Source: a virus. From it: a stretch of 28,986 nt of DNA. The position numbers were made by a program, and so were the translations under genes. Positions 2,718 to 25,986 of the stretch are shown here, one piece after another. The stretch lies in the IMG/VR virus record IMGVR_UViG_3300030412_000446, positions 1 through 28,986 of that record. One strand, 5' to 3'. Position 1 is the stretch's first letter; every line of letters begins with the position of its first letter. Under the pieces are notes generated by a model. It was not told the DNA's origin, did not search any database, and was given only the letters and a program-made list of their open reading frames with translations.

Positions 2718-3784
2718 CACTCAGCCCTCCCACGTCTCAAGTTAGCCGGCAAACAATCTTTAAACGACCTTGCCGCCTGTTTATCCGCTTGCTTTTGTGC
2801 CTCTGTCTTGGGTGCATCAGCCTTTGTCACCACAGGTGTTTTAACTTCAAGGCATAGCCCTCGAAACTCAGCCGCATCAGCAGGCCAAGCATCACGCCAT
2901 CGTGATAAACCATAATTCAACTGGTTTTCAGTTAACCCAGCCAACGCCTTATCCCAAGCAGATACCAACGCATCACGCACCGTTTCCTCGCGTAGCTTTG
3001 AAAAAAACTTATTCTCATACCGCATAAAAGCCACAAAAACACGCTTAGTTGCTGAATCAGGCAAAGACTGAATAAACTCAATCACCTCAGCATTGGATGT
3101 TTTAGCGCTGCTTGTAGTTGGCTCAGTGCCAGATTGATGTTTAATAAACCGTACTTCCTGCCGTTTGCAATAGCGAACAAACTCAGTCGGCCAGTTCAAT
3201 GCTTTCCACTCTTTCGCAACATTGCTTGTTACAAACTCAACAATGCACCATTCAGCCAAATCGTTTTGAACACCTGCTTGCTGCATCGCCACACGAACAT
3301 CGTTGTCAATAGAAAATTGAGGATCGATTAATTCAGGTTTTCGCGCGCGCTGTGTAATGTGGTTAAGTGACTGGTTAAAAGAGTGACTGGTTATGGGTGC
3401 AGAATCTGCACTAGCTAGGGGTGCAGAATCTGCACCACCTAGTGCAGAATTTTCACCAGTAAAACTACGTAATGGTGCAGAATCTGCACTAGCAACTTCG
3501 CTGACTTTTTCACCATTATTGAGTGTCAAAAAATAGACATTTGAACTATTTTTACTCGCCGTATTACGTCTGATTTTTTTAGAAATCAACCCCATTTCTT
3601 CCAAATCAGAAATATGATTAATCGCAGAACGCCGAGACATTTCACAAGCCTCAGCAATATAGTCATAACTAGGGAAACACATCCCCTCATCATTGGCATT
3701 ATCAGCCAACTTCAACAACACCAGCTTCCTAGCCGGATTGCCCACCTTGCAGCCCATTGCACGAACCATCAGCATCATGCTCAT
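2717..3784 (-). CDS. Phage replication initiator, O-like, with winged-helix domain
   Basis: The 355-residue protein has an N-terminal helix-turn-helix (about residues 20-90: KLVLLKLADNANDEG, then YIAEACEMSRRSAINHISDL and the wing), as in phage O-type initiators that bind origin iterons. Residues 98-130 are low-complexity, with three ADSAP repeats and a fourth imperfect copy. These are encoded by the iteron-like palindromes inside the gene, the same nested arrangement as in lambda O. The C-terminal part, probably the contact to the P-like protein, is alpha-helical and ends in a basic tail (LPANLRRGRAE). The ATG at 3784 overlaps the preceding stop (TAATG). Family and role are well supported by domain, repeats and order. 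Confidence 0.85.
   Translation of the reverse strand: MSMMLMVRAMGCKVGNPARKLVLLKLADNANDEGMCFPSYDYIAEACEMSRRSAINHISDLEEMGLISKKIRRNTASKNSSNVYFLTLNNGEKVSEVASADSAPLRSFTGENSALGGADSAPLASADSAPITSHSFNQSLNHITQRARKPELIDPQFSIDNDVRVAMQQAGVQNDLAEWCIVEFVTSNVAKEWKALNWPTEFVRYCKRQEVRFIKHQSGTEPTTSSAKTSNAEVIEFIQSLPDSATKRVFVAFMRYENKFFSKLREETVRDALVSAWDKALAGLTENQLNYGLSRWRDAWPADAAEFRGLCLEVKTPVVTKADAPKTEAQKQADKQAARSFKDCLPANLRRGRAE
3397..3489. repeat. Iteron-like palindromes, candidate replication origin
   Basis: Three perfect copies of the 15-bp palindrome GTGCAGAATCTGCAC lie at 3397-3411, 3421-3435 and 3475-3489, plus a degenerate copy at 3442-3456. All lie inside the O-like gene. Next to them, GTGACTGGTTA occurs twice (3367-3377, 3383-3393). 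AT-rich DNA lies on the other side, around 3500-3640. Lambda's origin has the same structure: four symmetric iterons and an AT-rich stretch within gene O. Confidence 0.75.
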
Positions 3785-11420: not shown

Positions 11421-12565
11421 TGACTGAAACCCGTGGCCGAAAACGCAAATTCAACCCCAAAATACCAGCGCACATCAATCAAAACCAACTGCCTGATAAC
11501 TGCTATTTTGACCGTGACCGCTGGGTTGCCAGATATACGGACGAAACCGGCCGTAATCGTAAAGTAAAAATAGGTACAAGCAAAGCAACATTAGCAGAGC
11601 TTCATAAAGCTATCGAACAATTTAACGGCATCAAACACAACACGTTCGACTGGCTTTCTGATGCATTCATGCAATCAACCAAATTTCGCGAACTAAGTAT
11701 CGAGACGCAAAAAGATTATGATTATTGCAGCAGAATAGTATCAGCACACCCTACCCGATTAAATCAACCCCTTGGTAGTTTCAGCATAGATAAATGGGAC
11801 TCGCCATTGTGCCAAAACCTAATCGACCAAATCGCAGACGCACGCGGTAAATCATCAGCAAATCACGCGGCAAGATACATCAAGCGACTATTCAGGTGGG
11901 GAAAAAACAAAGGCTACGCCAAGATAAACCCAGCGCTAGGCATCGAGATGCAAAAAGAAGCGCCAAAGCAACAGCTAGTGACCGATGACGTATACACCCG
12001 CGTACTCAACTACGCGCGAGAATGTGGCAATCTAAAGCCAAAAACCCAAGGCAGCGCACCAGGTTATATATGGATAGTGTTAGAAATCGCCTATCTTTGC
12101 CGGTTACGTGGTATTGAAGTCGTGACGATCACAGAAGATATGATCCAAGAAGATGGCCTGAAATGTGTCAGACGAAAAGGTAGCCGCACCAATATCACAA
12201 CATTGAATAAGCGCCTAAAAAATGCACTAGATTCAGCGATAAAGATGCGTAACAAAGCATGGAAAGACAACAAAACACCAATCCCGCACAAACCAGAGCA
12301 CCGGCCTATCATCGTCAACGGCAGTGGTGAGGCGCTGATTAAATCAACATTTGACAGCGCATGGAAGCGATTAATTACCAAAGCAATAGAGCAAGGTATA
12401 ATCACACAACAAGAACGGTTCAGCCCGCACGATCTAAAGCGCAAAGGCACAACCGACACACAAGGAACGCGAGCAGATAAGCAACAGGCAAGCGGACACA
12501 AATCAGATGCAATGATGGACGTGTACGACAAGTCCATTGCTATTGTAAAACCAAGCGGGGAATAA
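11420..12565 (+). CDS. int: Tyrosine integrase
   Basis: The 381-residue phage site-specific recombinase has an N-terminal arm-binding region (about 1-70), a core-binding SAM-like domain (about 75-170) and a catalytic domain. Catalytic residues: Arg230 (CRLRGIEV), His337 in HDLKRKG, His360 in SGHKS, and nucleophile Tyr369 in MMDVYDKS. The third motif has Lys (HDLK) in place of the usual Arg, as in several phage integrases of this type. It should act on the tRNA-Asn core about 320 bp downstream. It is last but one in the PL operon, so it is expressed with the early genes and perhaps from its own promoter in lysogens. A 36-bp part of it recurs at the left window edge. Confidence 0.95.
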   Translation: MTETRGRKRKFNPKIPAHINQNQLPDNCYFDRDRWVARYTDETGRNRKVKIGTSKATLAELHKAIEQFNGIKHNTFDWLSDAFMQSTKFRELSIETQKDYDYCSRIVSAHPTRLNQPLGSFSIDKWDSPLCQNLIDQIADARGKSSANHAARYIKRLFRWGKNKGYAKINPALGIEMQKEAPKQQLVTDDVYTRVLNYARECGNLKPKTQGSAPGYIWIVLEIAYLCRLRGIEVVTITEDMIQEDGLKCVRRKGSRTNITTLNKRLKNALDSAIKMRNKAWKDNKTPIPHKPEHRPIIVNGSGEALIKSTFDSAWKRLITKAIEQGIITQQERFSPHDLKRKGTTDTQGTRADKQQASGHKSDAMMDVYDKSIAIVKPSGE

Positions 12566-13105: not shown

Positions 13106-13807
13106 ATGATCAATAAAAGAAACATGCTTGTGCCAGTTGTAGCCATGTCATTTTTATATGGAGCCGCGTTTGCCCAATACCATATATTCCCATTTAACCA
13201 GTTAAGCATCCTTAAGGATATGGTGGCACCAAGCAAGCCCCTTCCCGCTTTCTCTGCCCACTACCTGCACAGAAAGAGCTTTTTTGAACACTTCTCAAGC
13301 AAGGTAGATATTGTGTTTTTAGGAGATAGCCTGACTAATGATGCAGAATGGGCGCAGATGCTGCCCAATATAAGCCTTGCCAATCACGGGATAAGCGGTG
13401 ATTCAACTACAGGCGGAATCAATAGGCTAAAAGCGACCATAGACACCAAGCCATCGAAAGTGTTTGTGATGTTTGGAATAAACGATTTTAGATACGGCGC
13501 AAGTGTTGATAGCGTTTTCAATAACTACCAAATAATCGTCCATGAATTGTTAAAAAACAACATATCTGTCTACATTCAATCTACGCTTATTGGTGGTGAG
13601 CAAAGGGTAAAGAGGAATATTAAAGTTAGGGAGTTGAATAAGCGGTTACAATCGTTTTCCACAGAAAACGAGTCCACCACATATATCAACTTAAATGAAA
13701 GAATGAGTGTTGATGGCGTGCTTAACCCTCTTTTCACAAGTGACGGAACGCACCTAAACGCAAAAGGGTATCAGCAGTGGAAAGATGTTATTTACGCTTA
13801 TTTATGA
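13106..13807 (+). CDS. SGNH/GDSL hydrolase (lysogenic-conversion candidate)
   Basis: The 233-residue protein has an N-terminal signal or anchor (MLVPVVAMSFLYGAAFA) and the SGNH blocks in order: GDSLT with nucleophile Ser75, Gly95 in HGISGDS, Asn126 in FGINDFR, and Asp213/His216 in DGTHLNAKGY. Such enzymes are esterases or acetyl transfer/removal enzymes acting on lipids, polysaccharides or peptidoglycan, here probably in the envelope or periplasm. It is opposite in strand to the late genes and next to attP, the standard place for a moron gene that changes the lysogen's surface. Convergent overlap with the DUF5675 gene is six bases. Substrate unknown. Confidence 0.87.
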   Translation: MINKRNMLVPVVAMSFLYGAAFAQYHIFPFNQLSILKDMVAPSKPLPAFSAHYLHRKSFFEHFSSKVDIVFLGDSLTNDAEWAQMLPNISLANHGISGDSTTGGINRLKATIDTKPSKVFVMFGINDFRYGASVDSVFNNYQIIVHELLKNNISVYIQSTLIGGEQRVKRNIKVRELNKRLQSFSTENESTTYINLNERMSVDGVLNPLFTSDGTHLNAKGYQQWKDVIYAYL

Positions 13808-14697: not shown

Positions 14698-14863
14698 TTC
14701 TAAATCCTATGGCATAGCCGTTTCTTGATTTAATCCGCACTCTTTCAAGCGATTCTTTTTTCCTAGCCTCAAGCCATTTATTTTGCTTGACGCGTTGCTG
14801 TTGTATTTCTTCTGCTGTTCTCTTTGCGCCAGTCCATGGTAATGGCACTGTGTCGCGATTCAT
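14636..14863 (-). CDS. Small charged helical protein
   Basis: ATG 14863 overlaps the DUF1353 stop (ATGA) and gives 75 residues; the longer open frame upstream lies inside DUF1353. The central part is strongly charged and helical (TAEEIQQQRVKQNKWLEARK, then KESLERVRIKSRN). Its last 62 bases overlap the start of the exported protein in another frame, as in nested lysis genes, so the end may be less constrained. Either a real coupled gene or a short reading frame; no family recognised. Confidence 0.5.
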   Translation of the reverse strand: MNRDTVPLPWTGAKRTAEEIQQQRVKQNKWLEARKKESLERVRIKSRNGYAIGFRNEKTDIDTIRRLLVGTYYIS

Positions 14864-15378
14864 CAGCTTTGCTCGATGTAGTGTGTGTTGCCTAGCTCGT
14901 GAGCGCGCGGGTTGAAATACCGCCAACCGCCAGTCCTGACACCCCAATAAGCTAGTTTTCGCTTGTCGTATCGCATGCCATCCTGCTCCATGACATCGTG
15001 AAAAAGCTGGTCGACATAAGAGCGAGTCAGCCAATGTCCAAGGCGCTGGATAGCGTAGAGCAAGTCATGAATAAGGGCTGCTCGCTCAATGTCTTTGTCA
15101 TCGCGTGGGATATACCACCAGACAATCCAAGGCACGCTTGCTTTGTCGTAAATAAAACCGGCTTTAATGACGTATGTTTTGCCGTCAGGTGTGCCAAAGC
15201 GAAAATCTGACAACAATAAGAAGTTGTCATCTGGTAAATGCCGCGTATCAACTAAATCTGGTAGCCACCATTTACCGATAAATTCAGGTGGTCGAATGAT
15301 TTCTTGTATAAAAACCTTGTCATTGGCTGCATTCAAAAATAATTCAGCAGCTAATGGTTTAATCTTTGCCGCGCTCAT
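14863..15378 (-). CDS. DUF1353 family protein
   Basis: The 171-residue protein contains the typical DUF1353 elements: a strand-rich N-terminus ending FGTPDGKTYVIKAGFIYDKAS, SVPWIVWWYIPR, then RAALIHDLLYAIQRL and the DQLFHDVMEQDGM-type helix. The conserved HD.LY and ASVP motifs are present. The family is common in tailed phages near tail or lysis genes; the HD pair suggests metal or hydrolase-like chemistry, but function is not established. It is coupled to genes on both sides by ATGA overlaps. Confidence 0.85.
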   Translation of the reverse strand: MSAAKIKPLAAELFLNAANDKVFIQEIIRPPEFIGKWWLPDLVDTRHLPDDNFLLLSDFRFGTPDGKTYVIKAGFIYDKASVPWIVWWYIPRDDKDIERAALIHDLLYAIQRLGHWLTRSYVDQLFHDVMEQDGMRYDKRKLAYWGVRTGGWRYFNPRAHELGNTHYIEQS

Positions 15379-15774: not shown

Positions 15775-16761
15775 TTAGGCGAACAAAGCGCCATCCATAG
15801 CGGTGGATTGATAGAGCGCGGTTGCGTTATTGTTGGTTTGTGGCGTGTCAATGGTATAGAGCAATGAACCAAGAGAACCGCTCGTTGCGTCACTGCCTGT
15901 CATCGTCAATGTATGTTCATAAATCATACATTTAGGCGTGCCAGTTGACCGGCCGAATAAATACAATCTATTGCTAGTGATACCGAACGCATCGAGATTG
16001 CCACCAATGGCCGCGTTAATGGTTGATGTAGATAATGAATAGGTTGCTATCTTCGTGCCTAGATTATTGAACACTTTGAATTGGTAATTGGTGTATCCAC
16101 TATCTGGGTCACAAAAAGCAATGACATCTTTGGCCGCTGCGCTCAATCCTTGATAGCTGATATTCTCGTAGGTTTCAGATCCTAACAGCGTGCCGGTCAT
16201 ATCAGATAGCGCCATGCGATCATCTGATACCGCGTGAGAATAAGTAAAGCCTATCGCCGTGTCATTCGCTACATGCGTTTGTGCGCCCATAAATACAATT
16301 GGCAGTGCAAAGTCATCGACATACGTGCCGTCTAATAAATATCGGTAAATCTCAAATACATCATCTTGCACAATAATATGTGTGCTATTCGTCGCAACTA
16401 ATGCTTGCGACAATCCCGTTGAGATATGATTTGATGCATTCTTGAACACATCCTCACCCAGCAAATCGCCGCCGTAAATATCATCACCATGAATACCCAG
16501 AAAGCCACGACCGCCCGCCTGACCCTCAAGAACTGGTGCGCTGCCGTCAGGGCTATACTTATAAACAGGATTGCCCGTTAAGCCGCCGCCATAGTGTCTA
16601 ACATAAAGGTACTCTGTTAAATCAGTTGGTAACTCTGAGCCTATCTCGGCAACACCCGAACTACCCGGAATGGCCGCGCGTAATTTGGGTGCTTTCAATC
16701 GCTTTCTTTTATCAATGCGAATCAAGCTGTTTAGATGCCTTACAAATTCTTTATCTGCCAT
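15775..16761 (-). CDS. Tail-tip or fibre-like structural protein
   Basis: The 328-residue protein has a basic N-terminal region (RHLNSLIRIDKRKRLKAPKL) and then repeated short beta-strand segments (LATNSTHIIVQDDVFEIYRY, and later IGGNLDAFGITSNRLYLFGR) like blades of a propeller or a beta-helix. It is the last large gene of the tail region, three genes after the tape measure, where siphoviruses encode host-recognition proteins. It ends next to an intrinsic terminator. I assign it as a tail-tip structural component by position and fold; no family signature. Confidence 0.55.
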   Translation of the reverse strand: MADKEFVRHLNSLIRIDKRKRLKAPKLRAAIPGSSGVAEIGSELPTDLTEYLYVRHYGGGLTGNPVYKYSPDGSAPVLEGQAGGRGFLGIHGDDIYGGDLLGEDVFKNASNHISTGLSQALVATNSTHIIVQDDVFEIYRYLLDGTYVDDFALPIVFMGAQTHVANDTAIGFTYSHAVSDDRMALSDMTGTLLGSETYENISYQGLSAAAKDVIAFCDPDSGYTNYQFKVFNNLGTKIATYSLSTSTINAAIGGNLDAFGITSNRLYLFGRSTGTPKCMIYEHTLTMTGSDATSGSLGSLLYTIDTPQTNNNATALYQSTAMDGALFA

Positions 16762-16762
16762 T

Positions 16763-18415
16763 TTATGACACCGTTATTGTTAATGTTTCATTGGGAATAT
16801 CAAACTCATAAGCTTGCGTTTTATCTGCCTCGATATGATCGATTGCTTCTTGATCAATATCAGGCGTGACGACTTTAAAGCGTACTGGATAGATTTGATC
16901 TTCTGTTGGTGAGCCAACCGACACCGAATAATTACCTGTGAACCCTTCCCAATCTTCGTCAAAATTGGCCACCGTGTCATCATTACCTATGCGCGAAGGT
17001 AATGCGGTTGTGCTTGCGGGTGCGCTAATGGCTGGATCTGTTCCCGGTGCGGCAGGTGGCGCGATCGTATCATCGGTTACCGCCGCCTCGCCGCCGTTGA
17101 GCGAGATAGCCACTTTCACTTCTGTTGTCGCACTGCCTGAATCCAAGTCCATTAAATGCTTAAGCTTGAATACCTTGCCTGTGCCATCAATACCGCCAGA
17201 ATTTAAACGCACAGTATGAAAGCGTTCAAGCAATGGGTTTAATTCAATATCAGCCCACACATAATTGCCGCGATGTGCTGATAAAATCTCTGTTCTTGCT
17301 CTGGCTATTAATGTCTCGATGTCATTATCTGAAATCGTGCGGTCATATTTGTCTTGCACAATATCGCCAATCGCATCCGTTCTGCCTGTTGGCGTGTCGA
17401 TGCCGTCCAGCCAACCTTCTGAATCGGTTTCCGTCTCATTGCTTGCTTGCTCTTCAAAAGCTATCGTGCCAAGCCATGTCACGGATTGTGGCGCAGTCAC
17501 GGTCAATGTGTAGTTTTCTGTCACTTGCTGTGACCATCGTTTGACTGCTGAAAACTCAGCCGTCATCACCAACGTTTCTTGTTTTTCGTCGCTGATAACC
17601 CAGTTGGCTATCGTGCCACACACAGCCGCTTTTGATTTTGGCACCGCCCCAAACAGTATAGGATGAACAACCGACCACCCCGCGCTATCTGCCGCCGTTG
17701 TGATCATATCGCGTGTCGGCAAATCATGAGACTGTGCAAAATAGGGACAAAACGCAAGATTAGCCCAACTAAAATCATGACTTCGATGTTTTAACCGATC
17801 AAAGCGATAGTTGTAATTGATTGTAAATTGATTAAATAGCTGTCTACGCGGCGCAATTGAATAATTAATTGAGCCGTCAATAATGTCACTCGAATCATAG
17901 CTATAATCTGGCGTGACTTTTGCCGCCCAGTCGACCAGTGTGCCGGTCGTGCCGTCTTTGTTAAAGTCGTATGCTTGCGGGTGAGTTTTTAATAAATCCT
18001 CAAGATATAGCCAACCATCTTCGTACTCACCAAAAACCGCTTCCGACCACCGTGCATCTGTCATCACGGCATCAATAGCCGTTTGCGTCATCGCTTCAAA
18101 TTGGCCTTGCATATTATCGGTACAATCAAAGTTAACCAGGCGCGTAGTCGGGTTGTAAAACGCATCATCCACAACACCCGTAAACACTCGGTTCTGGGTT
18201 AAGGTTGAACCGGCAGAATTAAGCGTTTTAAAATCAATTGTCACAGCTTGATTAAGCCAATCGCCCGCGCTCACCGTACCACTGTCTGGTGCAATTCTAA
18301 ATGTTGCGATCCGCGCTGTGGATTCTTCCGCTTCTACAGTAATTTGCCCTGTGACTTTGTCAGATATATCAACGCTGTTTAACGTGACAACAGGTTGCCA
18401 AATTAACGCCGTCAT
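16763..18415 (-). CDS. Tail hub/baseplate-like protein
   Basis: The 550-residue protein opens with WQPVVTLNSVDISDKVTGQI, a pattern like that of tail hub proteins (gp27/gp44-like), in which a first beta-barrel begins with a short ligand-like strand. A middle portion with many aromatic residues, a linker rich in Pro, Ala, Thr and Asp (TIAPPAAPGTDPAISAPAST) and a C-terminal acidic beta domain follow. It comes directly after the distal tail-like gene and shares an ATGA overlap with it. It is probably the central hub of the tail tip. Confidence 0.6.
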   Translation of the reverse strand: MTALIWQPVVTLNSVDISDKVTGQITVEAEESTARIATFRIAPDSGTVSAGDWLNQAVTIDFKTLNSAGSTLTQNRVFTGVVDDAFYNPTTRLVNFDCTDNMQGQFEAMTQTAIDAVMTDARWSEAVFGEYEDGWLYLEDLLKTHPQAYDFNKDGTTGTLVDWAAKVTPDYSYDSSDIIDGSINYSIAPRRQLFNQFTINYNYRFDRLKHRSHDFSWANLAFCPYFAQSHDLPTRDMITTAADSAGWSVVHPILFGAVPKSKAAVCGTIANWVISDEKQETLVMTAEFSAVKRWSQQVTENYTLTVTAPQSVTWLGTIAFEEQASNETETDSEGWLDGIDTPTGRTDAIGDIVQDKYDRTISDNDIETLIARARTEILSAHRGNYVWADIELNPLLERFHTVRLNSGGIDGTGKVFKLKHLMDLDSGSATTEVKVAISLNGGEAAVTDDTIAPPAAPGTDPAISAPASTTALPSRIGNDDTVANFDEDWEGFTGNYSVSVGSPTEDQIYPVRFKVVTPDIDQEAIDHIEADKTQAYEFDIPNETLTITVS

Positions 18416-18921
18416 ACTTGCTGACCTTCAAAATCCCAAGTGTGATTAGCTTGCCTGACTTGACCCGACTCGGTAGGCGGATCACACCAACAGCTAATCT
18501 CAGGCCAGTAAATCGCTTGATACGATGTTGCGCCTACCACTGTTGTTAATGTCGCCTCATCGGTTGACATCGTGACCGCCGTTGAAACCAACTTATTACC
18601 CACAACCGCGCGCCCCTCAACACCGTAATCACTACGCCGAGCCGCAGGCACATCAATCACATTTGACGCACTAGCAATCACGCGCTCTTTGATACATTTA
18701 ATCGTAATAGGTGAATCATAATCCAAGCCCTCAAGACCTGCGGGCGATATGCCGCTAGCTCTGATTGACGTGGATAATTTGCCGCTCCATGCTGTTTGCT
18801 GGATAAGCGTACCGTCTGACATTCTCAACCGTGAGCGAGACTGAACTGGCTCATACTCTTGGCTCAATTGCTCAGCGGCGCGAATCGGTATCTCTATCCC
18901 GCCAATTACTAATGTTCTCAT
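18412..18921 (-). CDS. Distal tail-like protein
   Basis: The 169-residue protein follows the tape measure gene with an ATGA overlap, and begins with a beta-strand (MRTLVIGGIEIPIRAAEQLS) then RLRMSDGTLIQQTAWSGKLS. It ends in a segment with two close Cys (ISCWCDPPTE) and an aromatic turn. Size and position (after the tape measure and before the hub) match the distal tail protein or minor tail protein M-type adaptor. Family not recognised, so function is positional. Confidence 0.58.
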   Translation of the reverse strand: MRTLVIGGIEIPIRAAEQLSQEYEPVQSRSRLRMSDGTLIQQTAWSGKLSTSIRASGISPAGLEGLDYDSPITIKCIKERVIASASNVIDVPAARRSDYGVEGRAVVGNKLVSTAVTMSTDEATLTTVVGATSYQAIYWPEISCWCDPPTESGQVRQANHTWDFEGQQV

Positions 18922-20666
18922 TGCTTGCCCCGTTTTCGAGATTCGGCTTGTATTTCAGCAGCGAATTGGCTGGCCGTAGTATCATCGCTGTATAACGTGT
19001 GCTCCCCGCCGCTTGGCAGTTGAACTACGACAGGTCGATAGTTTTGGGTTTGCGAAACCTTCTCTGAAGCAGAATTAGGGGCCACGTTATTACCAATAGA
19101 TATTGATTGAATCAATGGGTTAGCATTGAGTATGTCCTGCATAGCCTTATTACCAGCAAGTGCCTGCGCCCTCGCACCATCAAGGTCCACATTTATTTTT
19201 GATTCAACATTGGCAATGTTCTCTTGAGATATTTGCTCTGCAACACGTCTCAAACTGTCGCCCAGACCATCAAGCACAACACTGGACTGCGACCCTGATT
19301 CTTTCATCGCATCAAGCACATCAAATGCCGCTCTCAGCTTGTCAGTCGCCCCATCAATATCGCCTGTTTTAATGGCTTGCTGAGCTTGGATCTCTAAAAA
19401 ACCAACATCTATCGTGTTGGCTTTGCCCGCGTCAAACTTGGGCGTTTTAACATTGTTTAATCGCTTGTCAAATTCTGCCGTGATGCTTGACGACCTTTTC
19501 ACGGCATCACTCATAAGCTTGTCGAGTTCTTTTAATTTAGCCTCAACATCAACGACAGACTCACCCACGATCTTACTAGCATTCACAACCGGGCTTGCTA
19601 TTTTTTCAGCCGCAGCATTTGAGCTTGACGCTATCTTTTGTGGCGTTTCAGTCCATAGCTGCTCTATTTTAGAGAACGTATTTGATACGGAATCACCTGA
19701 ATCAGAAAAGCTATCTTTAATGATTTTCCCCGCTATCGAAAAATCACCCTTTGCAGCAGAAACCGCCGCAGCTGCAACCCCAGCAAAGCCCTTAGCAACA
19801 GTCTCTAAAACGCCATAAATTATAATGCCGCCCGTTGCTATCGATTTCAGAAATGTCTTAGTTCCTTCTAAAGCATTATTAAGGCTTTCGGTATTTTTAC
19901 TCCACGCCACGATTGATTTTGTCACATCAAGAAGAATTGGAATGGCAGGCTTCAACGCTTTAAGGAACGCCCCTTGCGCAGCAGATTTTAACCGCGTCAA
20001 ATTATCATTAGTTTCTTCTGCGGCGGCTGTCAGTTTGCCATCAAGCGTAATACCAAGCTCATCCGCTTCTTGAGACATTGCAGCTAATCCAGCCTTGCCA
20101 GCATTAAGCAAGGGGATCATCTTTGTGCCAGCTTTACCAAACAGCACTTGTGCTAAAGCTGATTTTTTAGCGCCATCTTCAAGCTGTGAAAACTGGTCCG
20201 CAACATCACCCATGACAGACTCGGTACTTCTTAACGTGCCATCAGTGTTCACAATACTGACGTTCAATGCTTTAAAAGCGTCCGCTTGTGTTTTTAAACC
20301 AGCACCAGCATCAAACATCGTTCTTTGAAAACGGGTAACACCTTTCACAACGGATTCAAACTCAGACCCTGTCAACTCTGCTTGGAAGCGTAGACGAGAC
20401 AAGCTTTCAACAGATAAACCTGTTGACTGTGACAATTTGGCCGTTCTATCTGCGAGATCTAAAGTTTGACGCGTTAAAACGGCTAGACTACCACTGACAG
20501 CAGCCAAGCCAATCGCACCCACTCTGCCAAGGCTTTTTAACGTATCAGATGTTTTAGACACCGCCCGGTCAAAACCAGACAGTTTGTTTTTTGCTGCATC
20601 TAAGTTACGGTTTAATTTTGAGCTATCCGCCTCTAACGGCACGACCAGCTTTTTTAAGTTAATCAT
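18918..20666 (-). CDS. Tape measure protein
   Basis: The 582-residue protein is helical with the classical opening LVVPLEADSSKLNRNLDAAK and KLSGFDRAVSKTSDTLKSLG, a glycine- and alanine-rich hydrophobic segment (GAIGLAAVSGSLAVL), then the DLADRTAKLSQSTGLSVESL motif typical of phage tape measures. Hydrophobic patches at about 265-300 fit DNA-channel passage. Using about 0.15 nm per residue, the tail would be roughly 85-90 nm, shorter than lambda's. It follows the G/GT-like genes and overlaps the GT stop by eight bases. Confidence 0.93.
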   Translation of the reverse strand: MINLKKLVVPLEADSSKLNRNLDAAKNKLSGFDRAVSKTSDTLKSLGRVGAIGLAAVSGSLAVLTRQTLDLADRTAKLSQSTGLSVESLSRLRFQAELTGSEFESVVKGVTRFQRTMFDAGAGLKTQADAFKALNVSIVNTDGTLRSTESVMGDVADQFSQLEDGAKKSALAQVLFGKAGTKMIPLLNAGKAGLAAMSQEADELGITLDGKLTAAAEETNDNLTRLKSAAQGAFLKALKPAIPILLDVTKSIVAWSKNTESLNNALEGTKTFLKSIATGGIIIYGVLETVAKGFAGVAAAAVSAAKGDFSIAGKIIKDSFSDSGDSVSNTFSKIEQLWTETPQKIASSSNAAAEKIASPVVNASKIVGESVVDVEAKLKELDKLMSDAVKRSSSITAEFDKRLNNVKTPKFDAGKANTIDVGFLEIQAQQAIKTGDIDGATDKLRAAFDVLDAMKESGSQSSVVLDGLGDSLRRVAEQISQENIANVESKINVDLDGARAQALAGNKAMQDILNANPLIQSISIGNNVAPNSASEKVSQTQNYRPVVVQLPSGGEHTLYSDDTTASQFAAEIQAESRKRGKQ

Positions 20667-21756: not shown

Positions 21757-21781
21757 AAAAAAGCCCACTAAATGTGGGCTT
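21757..21781 (-). terminator. Intrinsic terminator before the tail tube gene
   Basis: Minus strand: perfect 8-bp stem AAGCCCAC / GTGGGCTT with a five-base loop and a T run, followed by ATGGGAG, which is also the ribosome site of the tail tube gene. Confidence 0.88.
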
Positions 21782-21794
21782 GTGATTAAATTAA

Positions 21795-22241
21795 TTACGC
21801 GGCCTTATCTGGCTCGGTTTCTTGTATTCGATATTGAACTAAGTATTCCATTTCCGCCAAACCGTGAGGCTTGTCACCATCCGTCGTGAACTCTATATTT
21901 GTTAATTGATGTGAAGTATCAATAGCAAGCCCGTTTAATTTCTTATCCCCAGCCATCGCAACTTCAACATCGGCGCAAATAGCATCAAGGGCATCATCAG
22001 CACCTTCATTCGCTTTAACGTACACCTCGATTTTAAGTGTTAAGTTTCGATCAGCTTTCGCGGGTGTGTCAAAACTTGAGCGACCTTCCAGCTGATCAGA
22101 TGATGACGAGATAACCAAACAAGGCAAAGACGTTTTTTCCAGTGTGTATAGCCGATTGGTAAAAACTCGGTCTTGCGTTAAAGTTAAATCAGCAACCAGC
22201 TCTGCTACCCGCTCTCTTATTTGTTGTCTGATATGAATCAT
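21795..22241 (-). CDS. Tail terminator-like protein (U-like)
   Basis: The 148-residue protein begins MIHIRQQIRERVAELVADLT, then VFTNRLYTLEKTSLPCLVIS. The N-terminal helix followed by beta-strands, and the C-terminal MEYLVQYRIQETE, match phage tail terminators, which cap the tail tube before joining to the head. ATG overlaps the previous stop (ATGA). It follows the head-tail joining protein and precedes the tail tube gene, the canonical order. Confidence 0.8.
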   Translation of the reverse strand: MIHIRQQIRERVAELVADLTLTQDRVFTNRLYTLEKTSLPCLVISSSSDQLEGRSSFDTPAKADRNLTLKIEVYVKANEGADDALDAICADVEVAMAGDKKLNGLAIDTSHQLTNIEFTTDGDKPHGLAEMEYLVQYRIQETEPDKAA

Positions 22242-22534
22242 TGCTCTTCAAGCTCCAATACTGTTATCCCTGTGCCGTCCGGCTGTACGCCGACAACGTG
22301 ATATAGAATGTCCTTCACCACCGCGTCACAACCATGATGAATAGCGATCACATCTTTAGATTTGCACGTTAATGTTGGCTTGGATGATTCAACGCCAATA
22401 CCGAACGACGATAAGCCCTCAAATCCATTGTCAAAAATAGCGTCGATAGTTTCGCCGCCGACGGTTACGGCCTCGCCCAGCGTATCAATGCAAGCATCAT
22501 TTAAACCTTCCAACAAAGCTTCATCAAAAGACAT
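22238..22534 (-). CDS. Head-tail joining protein (FII-like)
   Basis: The 98-residue protein begins MSFDEALLEGLNDACIDTLG, then VTVGGETIDAIFDNGFEGLS. Lambda FII (gpFII, phage_attach family) has the same plan: an N-terminal helix, then a strand with ...I.GVFD. The C-terminal part KDILYHVVGVQPDGTGITVLELEEQ matches the last strands. It forms part of the head-tail interface. It sits before the U-like gene, as in lambda. Confidence 0.75.
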   Translation of the reverse strand: MSFDEALLEGLNDACIDTLGEAVTVGGETIDAIFDNGFEGLSSFGIGVESSKPTLTCKSKDVIAIHHGCDAVVKDILYHVVGVQPDGTGITVLELEEQ

Positions 22535-22870
22535 TTAAACCAGCCCCGCTTTACGTACTTTAATCATCACATCATCACTCACCGTATCACCGTTGCTGTC
22601 AACGCAGGTCAGTGTTACTTCATAATTCTCATCATCAGTGCCGCCGCCAATTTTGACGCTGACCTTTGTGCCGGATACCGCTTCATCATCAGCCGTAAGC
22701 GCATCATCCTCTGTCACCAAGCCTGCCGCCGTAACAACAGGCGCAGAGACAGAAGCCAAGGTCACGCCCGATGGCAATACGTTCTTAAAATCGATGGTGT
22801 AGGTTTTATCTTCTGCTGGTCGCTTAACCGCGTAAACCAGTTGAGAATCTGTATCAACTCTTGTTACCAT
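22535..22870 (-). CDS. Ig-like or adaptor-type structural protein
   Basis: The 111-residue beta-rich acidic protein has KTYTIDFKNVLPSGVTLASV, then APVVTAAGLVTEDDA and KVSVKIGGGTDDENYEVTLT. This resembles Ig-like domains attached to phage fibres or capsids (YjdB-like), or fibre adaptors. The ATG overlaps the repeat-protein gene by seven bases. It sits between fibre-like genes and the FII-like gene, in an unusual place for a fibre protein. The function is inferred. Confidence 0.55.
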   Translation of the reverse strand: MVTRVDTDSQLVYAVKRPAEDKTYTIDFKNVLPSGVTLASVSAPVVTAAGLVTEDDALTADDEAVSGTKVSVKIGGGTDDENYEVTLTCVDSNGDTVSDDVMIKVRKAGLV

Positions 22871-23640
22871 TTGCGAGTACCCGTTAAAGTAAGGTTGGTT
22901 GTTCTTGCTATAAGCGACAAATAAGACGCTCTGCTTTGCAAGCTGATTGGCACGCCATTTTCCAAATAAATTCCTTGAGTAACCAACCTAAACGCCGTAT
23001 TCGTTTCAACCGCCTGCCCAATCTGAGCACTAATGGCTTGCAGCAATGCACTTGCGGTATCAGTCTCGACCGCTTGGCTTATAGATAGCACTTTGCTTGA
23101 GCTAACATTAAAAGCACTATCTGTCTCGGTCGCCTGCGTAATAATCCGCAGTTTCAACGCTGTCACGCCGAATGCAGAACTAGTCTCTAATGCTTGCGTT
23201 ATTGCTAATGATTTGCTGCTTGATACGGCTTGTGATGTGTTAGCCTCACTCGCCCGCCCAATTGCCGTGCCACTGCTGACTGATACCGCTTGCGCCGTAT
23301 CGCTTTCAACTGCTTGAGTAATGCTTAGTGATTTGTTGCTTGATACTGATTGTGCTGTGCCCGCCTCAGTAGCTTGACCTATTGGCGTGCTACTGCTTGC
23401 TGTTACAGCCTGAGCGGTGTCAGACTCAACAGCCTGACTTATTTCAGCGGCCTTGCTTGCCGTGACTGCAAAAGCGCTGCCAGCCTCAACCGCTTGCCCG
23501 ATGACAGCCGACTTTCTCGAAGCGACCGAGAATACCGCTTCTGATTCTGTCGCTTGATTGATTTGGGCAGATACGTCCGACTCAGCTTCAGGAATACCGC
23601 CAATGGCGCGCTTGCCAATAGCAAATAAACCAATACTCAT
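22864..23640 (-). CDS. Structural protein with ten 20-residue tandem repeats
   Basis: The 258-residue protein has an N-terminal leader (MSIGLFAIGKRAIGGIPEAE), ten contiguous 20-residue repeats (residues 26-225; consensus about I.QA.E...A..V....) and a C-terminal 33-residue domain rich in Leu, Thr and Arg (SRASYLSLIARTTNLTLTGT). The repeats contain Ala, Ser, Thr and Gln with regular hydrophobic positions and few aromatic residues, so they probably form a beta-solenoid or trimeric fibre. It lies between capsid and head-tail genes, suggesting a head-associated fibre or decoration. No strong family recognition; the repeat itself is certain. Confidence 0.72.
   Translation of the reverse strand: MSIGLFAIGKRAIGGIPEAESDVSAQINQATESEAVFSVASRKSAVIGQAVEAGSAFAVTASKAAEISQAVESDTAQAVTASSSTPIGQATEAGTAQSVSSNKSLSITQAVESDTAQAVSVSSGTAIGRASEANTSQAVSSSKSLAITQALETSSAFGVTALKLRIITQATETDSAFNVSSSKVLSISQAVETDTASALLQAISAQIGQAVETNTAFRLVTQGIYLENGVPISLQSRASYLSLIARTTNLTLTGTRKW
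22966..23565 (-). repeat. 60-bp in-frame tandem repeats, ten copies
   Basis: Codons for conserved Ile sit at residues 27, 47, 67 and so on to 207, an exact 20-codon period. Copies differ at many third positions, so they are diverged but of constant length. The periodicity is protein-level; I see no CRISPR-type spacer structure. Confidence 0.92.
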
Positions 23641-24165
23641 TTAGATATTCTCTAATTGAGCAATATATTGATCCGCTATCACCTTGCACTGCTGCCAATC
23701 TGTTTCAGCCGCTATCGCTTCATTAGCTTCATCACGCATGTTTTCAATTGTGAATAATAGAAAATTCCATTGATCAGCTATACCTATAATTTCATCAGCC
23801 GCAACTTGACCCGTCACGCCTTGTCTTGTGGCTCGCGCGTTGACGTAAATGTAATTAGATATAGCCTGCTCTGGATAACCATCCGCTTTGAACTTCTCAC
23901 AATCTGCCAGTTTTGCTTTATAGGAATCAGATTGATAAGGAATATCTGTTGCATATTTTAATCGCACTATACCAACAGCATCATTGACCGCTTTGGACGC
24001 TTCCGCTTGTGCGGCTGGCAGCGGATCATAATTATTGATAATTAACTGGATTGCAGTCTCATCATCCTGCCTGTAAATCCATGCGCCATCAACTTTGCTA
24101 AGCGCCAGACCTTGACGAATTAATTCTTCTTGAAGACCTTCGCCTTTTTCAATGTAATTAATCAT
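23641..24165 (-). CDS. Fibre-module protein, assembly-chaperone-like
   Basis: ATG 24165 is chosen after a GGGG stretch and just downstream of the previous stop, giving 174 residues. It opens with MINYIEKGEGLQEELIRQGL, then a YDPLPAAQAEASKAVNDAVG helix and a long helical C-terminal half (TDWQQCKVIADQYIAQLENI). Soluble helical proteins coupled to fibre genes often act as fibre-assembly chaperones; this is inference by position and composition, not a recognised family. Confidence 0.52.
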   Translation of the reverse strand: MINYIEKGEGLQEELIRQGLALSKVDGAWIYRQDDETAIQLIINNYDPLPAAQAEASKAVNDAVGIVRLKYATDIPYQSDSYKAKLADCEKFKADGYPEQAISNYIYVNARATRQGVTGQVAADEIIGIADQWNFLLFTIENMRDEANEAIAAETDWQQCKVIADQYIAQLENI

Positions 24166-24167
24166 GC

Positions 24168-25022
24168 TTAACCCCAGATCGGAAGTATCATTGTTCTGAC
24201 AGTACACTGGAAATACCCAGCAGTTAATGTTGATGGGAATGGGTCTCCAGCCGTTGTTGTTGAGCTCAAATAATATGCGCTACGCCTATAATGGTTCCCA
24301 GACGTTAAAACGCCACCCATTGACAGCTTACTGTTATCAATCAACGCAAACCCAATAGATGCGTTATCCGTCAATGATGCGAATGCGTACCGGCCAGCAG
24401 TTAAAATCGTTTTTGACACAGAGTTAAGGCTTGCACCTGTTGATGTAGTATCAATCAGTCCAGAGTCTAAAATCAGGGTAAACGTGCCGTCATTGTTGTC
24501 GCGATATATTGCTACTCTCGTGTTAGACGAAGCCGCCGCCGACCTAATCCCGCACCCAAAGTTTTCAATAACCTCCAAGCCGCTAATCTCAACAGTCATC
24601 CACGAGATAACATCCGCAATAGTTGATCCGCCCGCATCGCCAGAGGTGATTCCATCAAAGGTTTTAAAGCTATTTGACGTTGCCGAGTAATTGGATGGCA
24701 ATTGATTTCCCGAAGTCGAAGCAATTTGTGCGCATCGTATCGTATGCGTGCCGCCCGACAGCGTGATGTTGCTGGACGGGTTATCATCAATGACCGTGCC
24801 ATTCCAATTCCACGTATCATTACGCGTTATATCATCTGTTGCCGATACATACGCGCCTATTCCGGAGGCCTGAATTGTGCCACCGCTATCCTGGACAAAG
24901 TACGAGATTAAATCACCATCACTGAATGACTTACTGAAGGCGATATGATCTGAAATAGCGCCTGACAGCTCTAGCGTGTCACCCGTTCCTGTGCATGTTT
25001 CTGCTGTTGCGTTTGCGAACAT
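24168..25022 (-). CDS. Fibre-like or receptor-binding structural protein
   Basis: The 284-residue protein is rich in Ser, Thr, Gly, Asn and Asp and in short beta strands. The N-terminus MFANATAETCTGTGDTLELS and the block SYFVQDSGGTIQASGIGAYV resemble the N-termini of phage fibre-like proteins annotated in many temperate phages. The C-terminus (AGYFQCTVRTMILPIWG) is hydrophobic. It overlaps its upstream neighbour by one base. It is unusual in lying between capsid and FII-like genes, so it may be a head fibre or side structure. Confidence 0.6.
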   Translation of the reverse strand: MFANATAETCTGTGDTLELSGAISDHIAFSKSFSDGDLISYFVQDSGGTIQASGIGAYVSATDDITRNDTWNWNGTVIDDNPSSNITLSGGTHTIRCAQIASTSGNQLPSNYSATSNSFKTFDGITSGDAGGSTIADVISWMTVEISGLEVIENFGCGIRSAAASSNTRVAIYRDNNDGTFTLILDSGLIDTTSTGASLNSVSKTILTAGRYAFASLTDNASIGFALIDNSKLSMGGVLTSGNHYRRSAYYLSSTTTAGDPFPSTLTAGYFQCTVRTMILPIWG

Positions 25023-25459
25023 TATGACGCTCTAAAAAAGCCATCAGAGCCAATTTCCAACGTCAACGTGCTACCGTCTGTTGTTGGCGTGAAGTCATGA
25101 TGAGTTAATGGGACAAGATTGGCATCACCTGCGCTTTCGCGATAGCAAACAATTGCTTTCGTTAATGTGTTATCGGTTGATCCACCCGCTGATGTCCATG
25201 TTTGATCTGGCATGTCACAGTCAACACGGTTGTTTGTATCATCGACCGTTACCGTTCCTGTTATGCCTGTTTTGCGAGCATAGTTATCAAAGTCTGCTTC
25301 TGTGTTACTTGCTGCTAATAATGCTGCCATGTCAGCATGATCAACTAGATTTGCCTCCGTTTCATTTACTTTTAGCAATACCACTTCTAAATTGGCTGCT
25401 GAATCTGCAATTTTCTCAACGACCCGCCCTTTTGCAATATTAAATACGCCATCTGTCAT
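25022..25459 (-). CDS. Phage structural protein near capsid genes
   Basis: ATG 25459 is preferred, seven bases after GAGGG, giving 145 residues; the longer frame would begin inside a terminator hairpin. The sequence MTDGVFNIAKGRVVEKIADS, then LLKVNETEANLVDHADMAAL and the later VCYRESAGDANLVPLTHHDF, ending GFFRAS, follows a pattern common in phage structural genes of this region. It probably forms a collar, fibre base or decoration component. It is the first of five genes lying between the capsid cement and the head-tail joining gene. Confidence 0.6.
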   Translation of the reverse strand: MTDGVFNIAKGRVVEKIADSAANLEVVLLKVNETEANLVDHADMAALLAASNTEADFDNYARKTGITGTVTVDDTNNRVDCDMPDQTWTSAGGSTDNTLTKAIVCYRESAGDANLVPLTHHDFTPTTDGSTLTLEIGSDGFFRAS

Positions 25460-25550: not shown

Positions 25551-25928
25551 TTAAGCTAACGCACCCGCTTTGCCGGTTAATAGCACTGTGCAAGTCGTTT
25601 CACTTGCAGCGCCATCAGCTGAAGCAATCACAGAGCCGCTGACATCGCCTGTCGCTGGTGTCGCTTGATTGTCATCAAATTTACTAACAGATGAATCCCA
25701 GATTAAGGTTTCGCCTTGTTTGAACACCGCTGCGGTGACTTTAGGCACTGTAAACACGCCACAAATCGCAACCGCACCTGATTCACCATCTGCAATATCA
25801 ACTAATGCAACACCAAGCGTTGCATCACTTGTTGCCCCCATGACGACCACGCCACCAGAGACAATATCGCCGCCCGTGCCGTTGGTCCAATTAAACGTCT
25901 TACCGTCTTGTACAAATGTTTTTGCCAT
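25551..25928 (-). CDS. Capsid cement/decoration protein (DUF2190)
   Basis: The 125-residue protein reads MAKTFVQDGKTFNWTNGTGG, then VSGGVVVMGA, VALVDIADGESGAVAICGVF and LIWDSSVSKFDDNQATPATG. This is the DUF2190 pattern of small beta-barrel capsid decoration (cement) proteins, which bind and stabilise the mature capsid. It follows directly the capsid gene, and a terminator follows it, consistent with high-level expression. The short C-terminal extension ends in GKAGALA. Confidence 0.87.
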   Translation of the reverse strand: MAKTFVQDGKTFNWTNGTGGDIVSGGVVVMGATSDATLGVALVDIADGESGAVAICGVFTVPKVTAAVFKQGETLIWDSSVSKFDDNQATPATGDVSGSVIASADGAASETTCTVLLTGKAGALA

Positions 25929-25962: not shown

Positions 25963-25986
25963 AAGGCCACCGTAATTGATGGCCTT
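25963..25986 (-). terminator. Possible weak terminator between capsid and cement genes
   Basis: AAGGCCA (25963-25969) and TGGCCTT (25980-25986) form a 7-bp stem. In the minus direction the following sequence is CATTATTTT rather than a clean T run, so it may attenuate only partly or process the mRNA. Confidence 0.5.

Follow-up and report, generated by a model that had tools for sequence, protein, structure and literature searches.

A probable collar-anchored neck-fibre cassette among the head genes of a temperate long-tailed phage

What are five genes, one of them for a fibre-like protein, doing between the capsid cement gene and the head-tail joining genes of a phage, and where in the virion would their products sit? 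The locus lies in the virus record IMGVR_UViG_3300030412_000446, analysed over positions 1 to 28,986 (28,986 bases, hereafter the window). The window carries integrase-like and S24 repressor genes, and on its minus strand the order is portal, ClpP-capsid fusion, cement, the five-gene block, FII-like closure, U-like terminator (phrog_4204, E 1.6e-23), tube, tape measure and presumed tail-tip genes, so that by its gene content it looks like a temperate lambdoid-like siphophage. A GDSL lipase/esterase gene near the integrase gene (13106-13807, plus strand) is a possible lysogenic-conversion gene. The reading that we favour, with a probability of about 0.6, is that the block encodes a collar-anchored neck-fibre cassette at the head-tail junction.

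As shown in Table 1, all five ORFs that the sequence-only reading had placed between the cement and joining genes are found there, and the first of them does begin with the ATG at 25459. The gene that follows the fibre had been given as a 188-aa ORF at 23641-24207; this ORF exists, but its start is probably the ATG at 24165, because its relatives align from there. Terminator-like hairpins flank the genes from cement through U, and the block may therefore be transcribed as a unit of its own, without the capsid and tube genes; the consensus scan that detected them found 14 such sites in the region, against 7.8 expected. An annotated terminator lies at the matching place after the capsid gene of mEp043. 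The GC content gave no sign of a recent import of the block.

Table 1. Features of the block and its surroundings in the window (aa, amino acids).
Feature	Position	Strand	Basis
Block as a whole	22535-25459	-	five co-oriented, nearly contiguous ORFs
DGVF, 145-aa bead-like structural protein	25022..25459	-	phrog_26662 (E 2.1e-24) / phrog_644
fib284, 284-aa fibre, probable receptor-binding protein	24168..25022	-	sequence relatives
g188, gene of 174 aa following that of the fibre, probable helper in fibre folding (putative function)	23641..24165	-	phrog_8983, relatives
Rope, 258-aa protein, mostly 20-aa tandem repeats	22864..23640	-	autocorrelation, phrog_14065 (E 5.5e-12)
gp77-like 111-aa fibre-tail adaptor	22535..22870	-	PF23148 (54.7 bits, cut-off 27, E 1.5e-14)
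Cement protein (DUF2190), upstream border of block	25551..25928	-	PF09956 (68.1 bits, cut-off 24); phrog_122
FII-like head closure protein, downstream border	22238..22534	-	PF05354 (48.9 bits, cut-off 26); phrog_82
Tape measure gene	18918-20666		
Presumed tail-tip genes	15775-18921		
Terminator-like hairpin between capsid and cement genes	25963..25986	-	consensus scan only
Terminator-like hairpin between U-like and tube genes	21761..21781	-	consensus scan only

The gene order of this slot was read in nine annotated phages with a related capsid gene. Cement leads to the joining genes without an insert in five of them (F10, MD8, mEp043, RcSwan and Pmp14), the genes after cement are unnamed in Va_90-11-286_p16, Dulem virus 34 and P8625, and in MinM1 the DUF2190 and PF05354 genes are separated by seven annotated genes (L052 4817-8049), one of 535 aa, with no match to the block at E 0.01. 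The gap was then counted in 82 records, namely the best 80 of at least 591 confirmed loci of IMG/VR relatives together with L048 and the window; 50 of these could be used, as the other 32 did not show both cement and FII in the order expected. The gap did not exceed 200 nt in 45 of the 50, which agrees with the lambda-like order that had been taken as the norm, and the larger gaps were those of L090 (548 nt), L094 (1167), L102 (1743), the window (3019) and L080 (3421). In L094 and L102 the slot holds genes unrelated to the block, in such a way that this slot is mostly empty and is sometimes filled with different things. That unrelated genes can fill it is what one would expect if the block were a set of inserted, unrelated genes with no part in the virion, a reading that we regard as highly improbable in view of the order conserved in L080 (see below) and of the family matches to virion proteins. 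On a separate point, a prepilin-like gene occupies the slot of L094 (4690-5226), and genes of the prepilin type come after tube in F10 and MD8 (L002 8679-9311; L003 8663-9184); pilin-like genes thus recur in this capsid family.

L080, the closest relative among the best 80 of these at least 591 loci, has a capsid protein 78% identical and a cement protein 73% identical to those of the window. Its slot contains, in order, two genes of 90 and 119 aa, a 302-aa fibre (30% over 242 aa with fib284), a 173-aa relative of g188 (48.5% over 169 aa), a 320-aa repeat protein (period 22, z 24.1), an adaptor (47.7% with that of the window) and FII; DGVF is absent, and the two small genes stand in its place. 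Since the block is repeated in the same order and slot, a chance run of ORFs or a mis-annotation was ruled out. Between the two genomes the block has diverged more than the capsid, but this fast divergence is not special to it, because the tape measure proteins are at 47% and tblastn found no match at all between the window and L080 for the FII, U and tube proteins. In three further capsid relatives (L083, L097 and L131) the adaptor lies at the terminase/portal end. The same order is probable for Mae-JY22, which has capsid and tape measure proteins related to those of the window; its terminase and portal genes, named by size and order only, are at the opposite end of its linear record. All six adaptor genes found with this capsid type (there are at least six) sit in the head gene cluster, and the block was thus not encountered in the tail region of close relatives, a finding that would have spoken for a tail-tip location.

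The adaptor is the member of the block with the clearest family, PF23148, which is the fiber-tail adaptor family of podophage GP4. It also matches chain 8jou_D (E 1.5e-4) of the PDB entry entitled 'Fiber I and fiber-tail-adaptor of phage GP4', and a fragment of 8jou_D, used as a query, found relatives in 72 phage records, among them the podophages BcepIL02 and BcepMigl, cluster L mycobacteriophages and Microcystis phages. Direct IMG/VR searches with the adaptor, the fibre and the g188 protein of the window confirmed no relatives. No paper on a fiber-tail adaptor gp77 was found in the searched literature, which leaves out most subscription journals. In BcepIL02 and BcepMigl the adaptor genes adjoin fibre genes. 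In the 13 adaptor loci collected from IMG/VR and GTDB, Pfam detected a head-tail connector near downstream of the adaptor in seven (six with PF20557, one with PF05135) and, in a single locus, a tube protein; a capsid gene lies upstream in all five loci tested for it. These neighbours also bear on whether the block might encode capsid fibres, set on cement or on capsid vertices as in phage 7-7-1, for which vertex fibres are described (PMC12796354). The position directly after the cement gene would fit this, as would Hiyaa, with its DGVF relative between capsid and adaptor genes; but the only protein of clear family is named for a fibre-tail adaptor and not for a capsid binder, and in the tested loci the adaptor mostly adjoins connector genes, which makes capsid fibres quite unlikely.

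A place on the tail finds more to build on. In cluster L mycobacteriophages the adaptor relatives lie inside the tail cluster, among minor tail genes and with a bead-like protein: in GuuelaD the adaptor (99.3 bits) follows the tape measure gene, and its neighbour encodes a protein that was used as a seed of the bead family. In R9Y2 a weak adaptor match (15.6 bits, under the cut-off) and a repeat protein both come after the tail genes. The block could accordingly encode tail-tip or side tail fibres merely housed in the head operon, with the adaptor ring on the tail end. However, the window has presumed tail-tip genes of its own downstream of the tape measure gene, of which tip169 and tip550 are related to F10, and the block does not lie with them but between cement and FII; the six adaptor genes in head clusters and the occurrence of parts of the block in short-tailed phages (see below) also weigh against tail fibres, which we consider unlikely. 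Because relatives of the adaptor (cluster L) and of DGVF (Pam4) are also at home in tail clusters, gene position by itself is a weak argument for the neck.

The neck-fibre reading also draws on the pairing of the adaptor with the repeat protein. The autocorrelation of the window rope reaches 1.16 at lag 20 and 1.33 at lag 40, against at most 0.11 in 200 shuffles, and its gene overlaps that of the adaptor; AF2 modelled it with low confidence (pLDDT 48). Upstream of the adaptor, all 13 IMG/VR and GTDB loci, a biased sample, as it came from queries with related adaptors, carry a repeat ORF with a period of 18-26 aa (z 6.4 to 23.6). Repeat ORF and adaptor are within 47 nt of each other in 12 of the 13 (595 nt in L063), and PF23148 is over the cut-off in 12 of the records, L067 being the exception. 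The window carries the same pair. A repeat ORF also stands by the adaptor in Mae-JY22, Mwe-JY26 and BcepIL02, and weakly in BcepMigl (z 3.1); the adaptor locus of GuuelaD showed no repeat protein. In Mae-JY22, a Mu-like Microcystis phage (L058/L059), the repeat protein, the adaptor and a beta-helix protein lie beside head genes. Short repeats at a spacing of nine residues form the end of many ropes. A pattern for this C-terminal motif, written after inspection of the sequences, had two or more copies, mostly nine residues apart, in 12 of the 13 adaptor loci, with a count above the maximum of 500 shuffles in only four, and no copies in the window, L067, BcepMigl, R9Y2 or MW202475. A search of the PDB by sequence found no relatives of the GP4 rope.

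DGVF yielded a confident AF2 model (pLDDT 89.8, pTM 0.86). When this was compared by Foldseek with 350,542 PDB chains, the top match was 8jou_a, the fiber I of GP4 (prob 0.96, TM 0.45, E 0.016, not significant), and the other 49 among the matches listed had a prob of at most 0.10. In VIA the best match was the Bxb1 tail tip (Z 8.7), which favours tail fibres, followed by the Bas63 connector (Z 6.8), 8jou_a (Z 6.6, rank 3), and then by 7-7-1 tail fibres and phi812 baseplate arms. The predicted fold is thus matched to phage adhesion or connector parts and not to one location. A sequence link between DGVF and the GP4 bead did not emerge: profile comparison with 8jou_a gave a prob of 7.9% and the iterated bead HMM did not reach DGVF. 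8jou_a itself is close to a BcepMigl protein that adjoins the presumed repeat gene of that phage (E 2.5e-59). Among 39 IMG/VR relatives of DGVF, a repeat ORF lies within 3 kb in 14 loci (14 of the 184 ORFs nearby and 1 of the 226 far away, counts that are not independent, as the same DGVF gene recurs in several loci). In L043 the genes for repeat protein, adaptor and DGVF are neighbours and immediately precede genes that look terminase- and portal-like by eye, and DGVF and adaptor also occur together in L067 and L072. PF23148 was matched in only two of the 39 DGVF records, one of them over the cut-off, which shows that DGVF is no fixed partner of this adaptor; in Pam4 its relative is at the tail end, a further point for tail fibres. 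The contig L013 has two DGVF genes close together (1720-2211 and 3016-3465).

The other two genes lead to the P22-like MW202475, whose record is titled Myoviridae. fib284 resembles its 'tail fiber' (24% over 229 aa, E 1e-6), and between its fibre and repeat genes lies an unannotated ORF (L007 12855-13322) that matches g188 at 28.9 bits, the best of 1000 shuffles being 23.1. MW202475 therefore has fibre, g188 relative and repeat protein, three of the five block genes, in the window's order, but with short-tailed gene content and no PF23148 match. Since parts of the block are found in the short-tailed MW202475, BcepIL02 and BcepMigl, they do not need a long tail. Two candidates were discarded: the tail-end gene at 14863-15378 of the window, which has no similarity to g188 and is DUF1353 by Pfam, and the MW202475 gene at 11531-11989, which looked like a bead by eye and had no such match in the PDB search.

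GP4, a short-tailed Ralstonia phage, provides the model for these parts. Its study reportedly describes a rope protein that links fibre and adaptor, and a 15-fold adaptor ring with five fibres. The window adaptor belongs to the same Pfam family, DGVF may resemble the GP4 bead-like protein in its predicted fold, and the repeat protein is a natural candidate for the linking rope; unlike GP4, the window has its cassette on a long-tailed lambdoid-like phage, and DGVF has no sequence match to 8jou_a. From the observed genes and their order, the adaptor family, the repeats, the fold predicted for DGVF and the recurrence of the cassette, we propose the following arrangement. The PF23148 protein would form a ring around the connector, as in GP4, and the repeat protein an extended rope, with its C terminus docked on that ring. 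DGVF would be a bead or base domain along the rope or at its end, and fib284 the receptor-binding fibre, which g188 may help to fold. The cassette would probably serve for an initial and reversible contact with the host surface, apart from that made by the tail tip.

Neck rings that carry fibres have been described elsewhere. In the Anabaena myophage A-1(L) a 15-mer ring of gp5 holds five neck fibres (gp80-gp82) (PMC10966104), and 15-fold neck rings carrying, or able to carry, fibres are also the collars of Milano and of 7-7-1 (for the latter, PMC12796354). A-1(L) would share with our proposal the fibres on a 15-fold ring and the bead-chain build; it differs in its contractile tail and in fibre genes numbered far from the neck genes. 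The nearest published siphovirus parallel is the 'extra structural module' gp34-gp36 of the Alishewanella siphophage LSH1, described as an adhesin/depolymerase, a protein matching 8JOU_g and an Ig-fold protein, for which the authors proposed a chain from Ig protein to fibril to payload (PMC13243795). That module lies downstream of the lysis module and not in the head operon, and its payload is another one; the window is set apart by its slot in the head operon, by the pairing of rope and adaptor, and by a fibre/g188 pair that it has in common with a P22-like phage. A published description of the window's arrangement was not found in the titles and abstract openings searched, a literature that leaves out most subscription journals.

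Against the neck stand the tail-cluster homes of relatives in Pam4, cluster L and R9Y2 and the tail-tip fold match of DGVF. Further points against it are that MW202475 gave no PF23148 match, that L080 has no DGVF, that the window rope lacks the C-terminal motif by the pattern applied, and that DGVF mostly occurs apart from this adaptor. In its favour are the adaptor's role in GP4, the adjoining connector genes, the parts found in short-tailed phages and the published 15-fold neck rings, in such a way that the neck is favoured by homology more than by position. The sequence-only reading had proposed head fibres or a neck collar; its neck half has gained from the PF23148 adaptor, the bead-like fold, the rope beside the adaptor and the recurrence in short-tailed phages, and its capsid-display half has gained no support.

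These data suggest that genes for host attachment may lie, and be swapped, elsewhere than among the tail genes. More tentatively, a portable neck-fibre cassette, PF23148 protein plus rope, might move between short-tailed, long-tailed and Mu-like phages and a few fixed head-operon slots, with its bead and tip genes swapped and with the C-terminal strands of the rope, spaced every nine residues in many loci, docking on neighbouring adaptor subunits of the neck ring. The rope-adaptor pair offers a simple genomic mark for finding such cassettes and a testable binding interface. If a portable cassette of this kind exists, the host recognition of many long-tailed phages would lie partly outside the tail genes, where annotation would miss it. 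If the neck-fibre reading is right, receptor binding or surface search in such phages would be partly on a swappable collar fibre encoded among the head genes, and host-range prediction from tail genes alone would miss that fibre.
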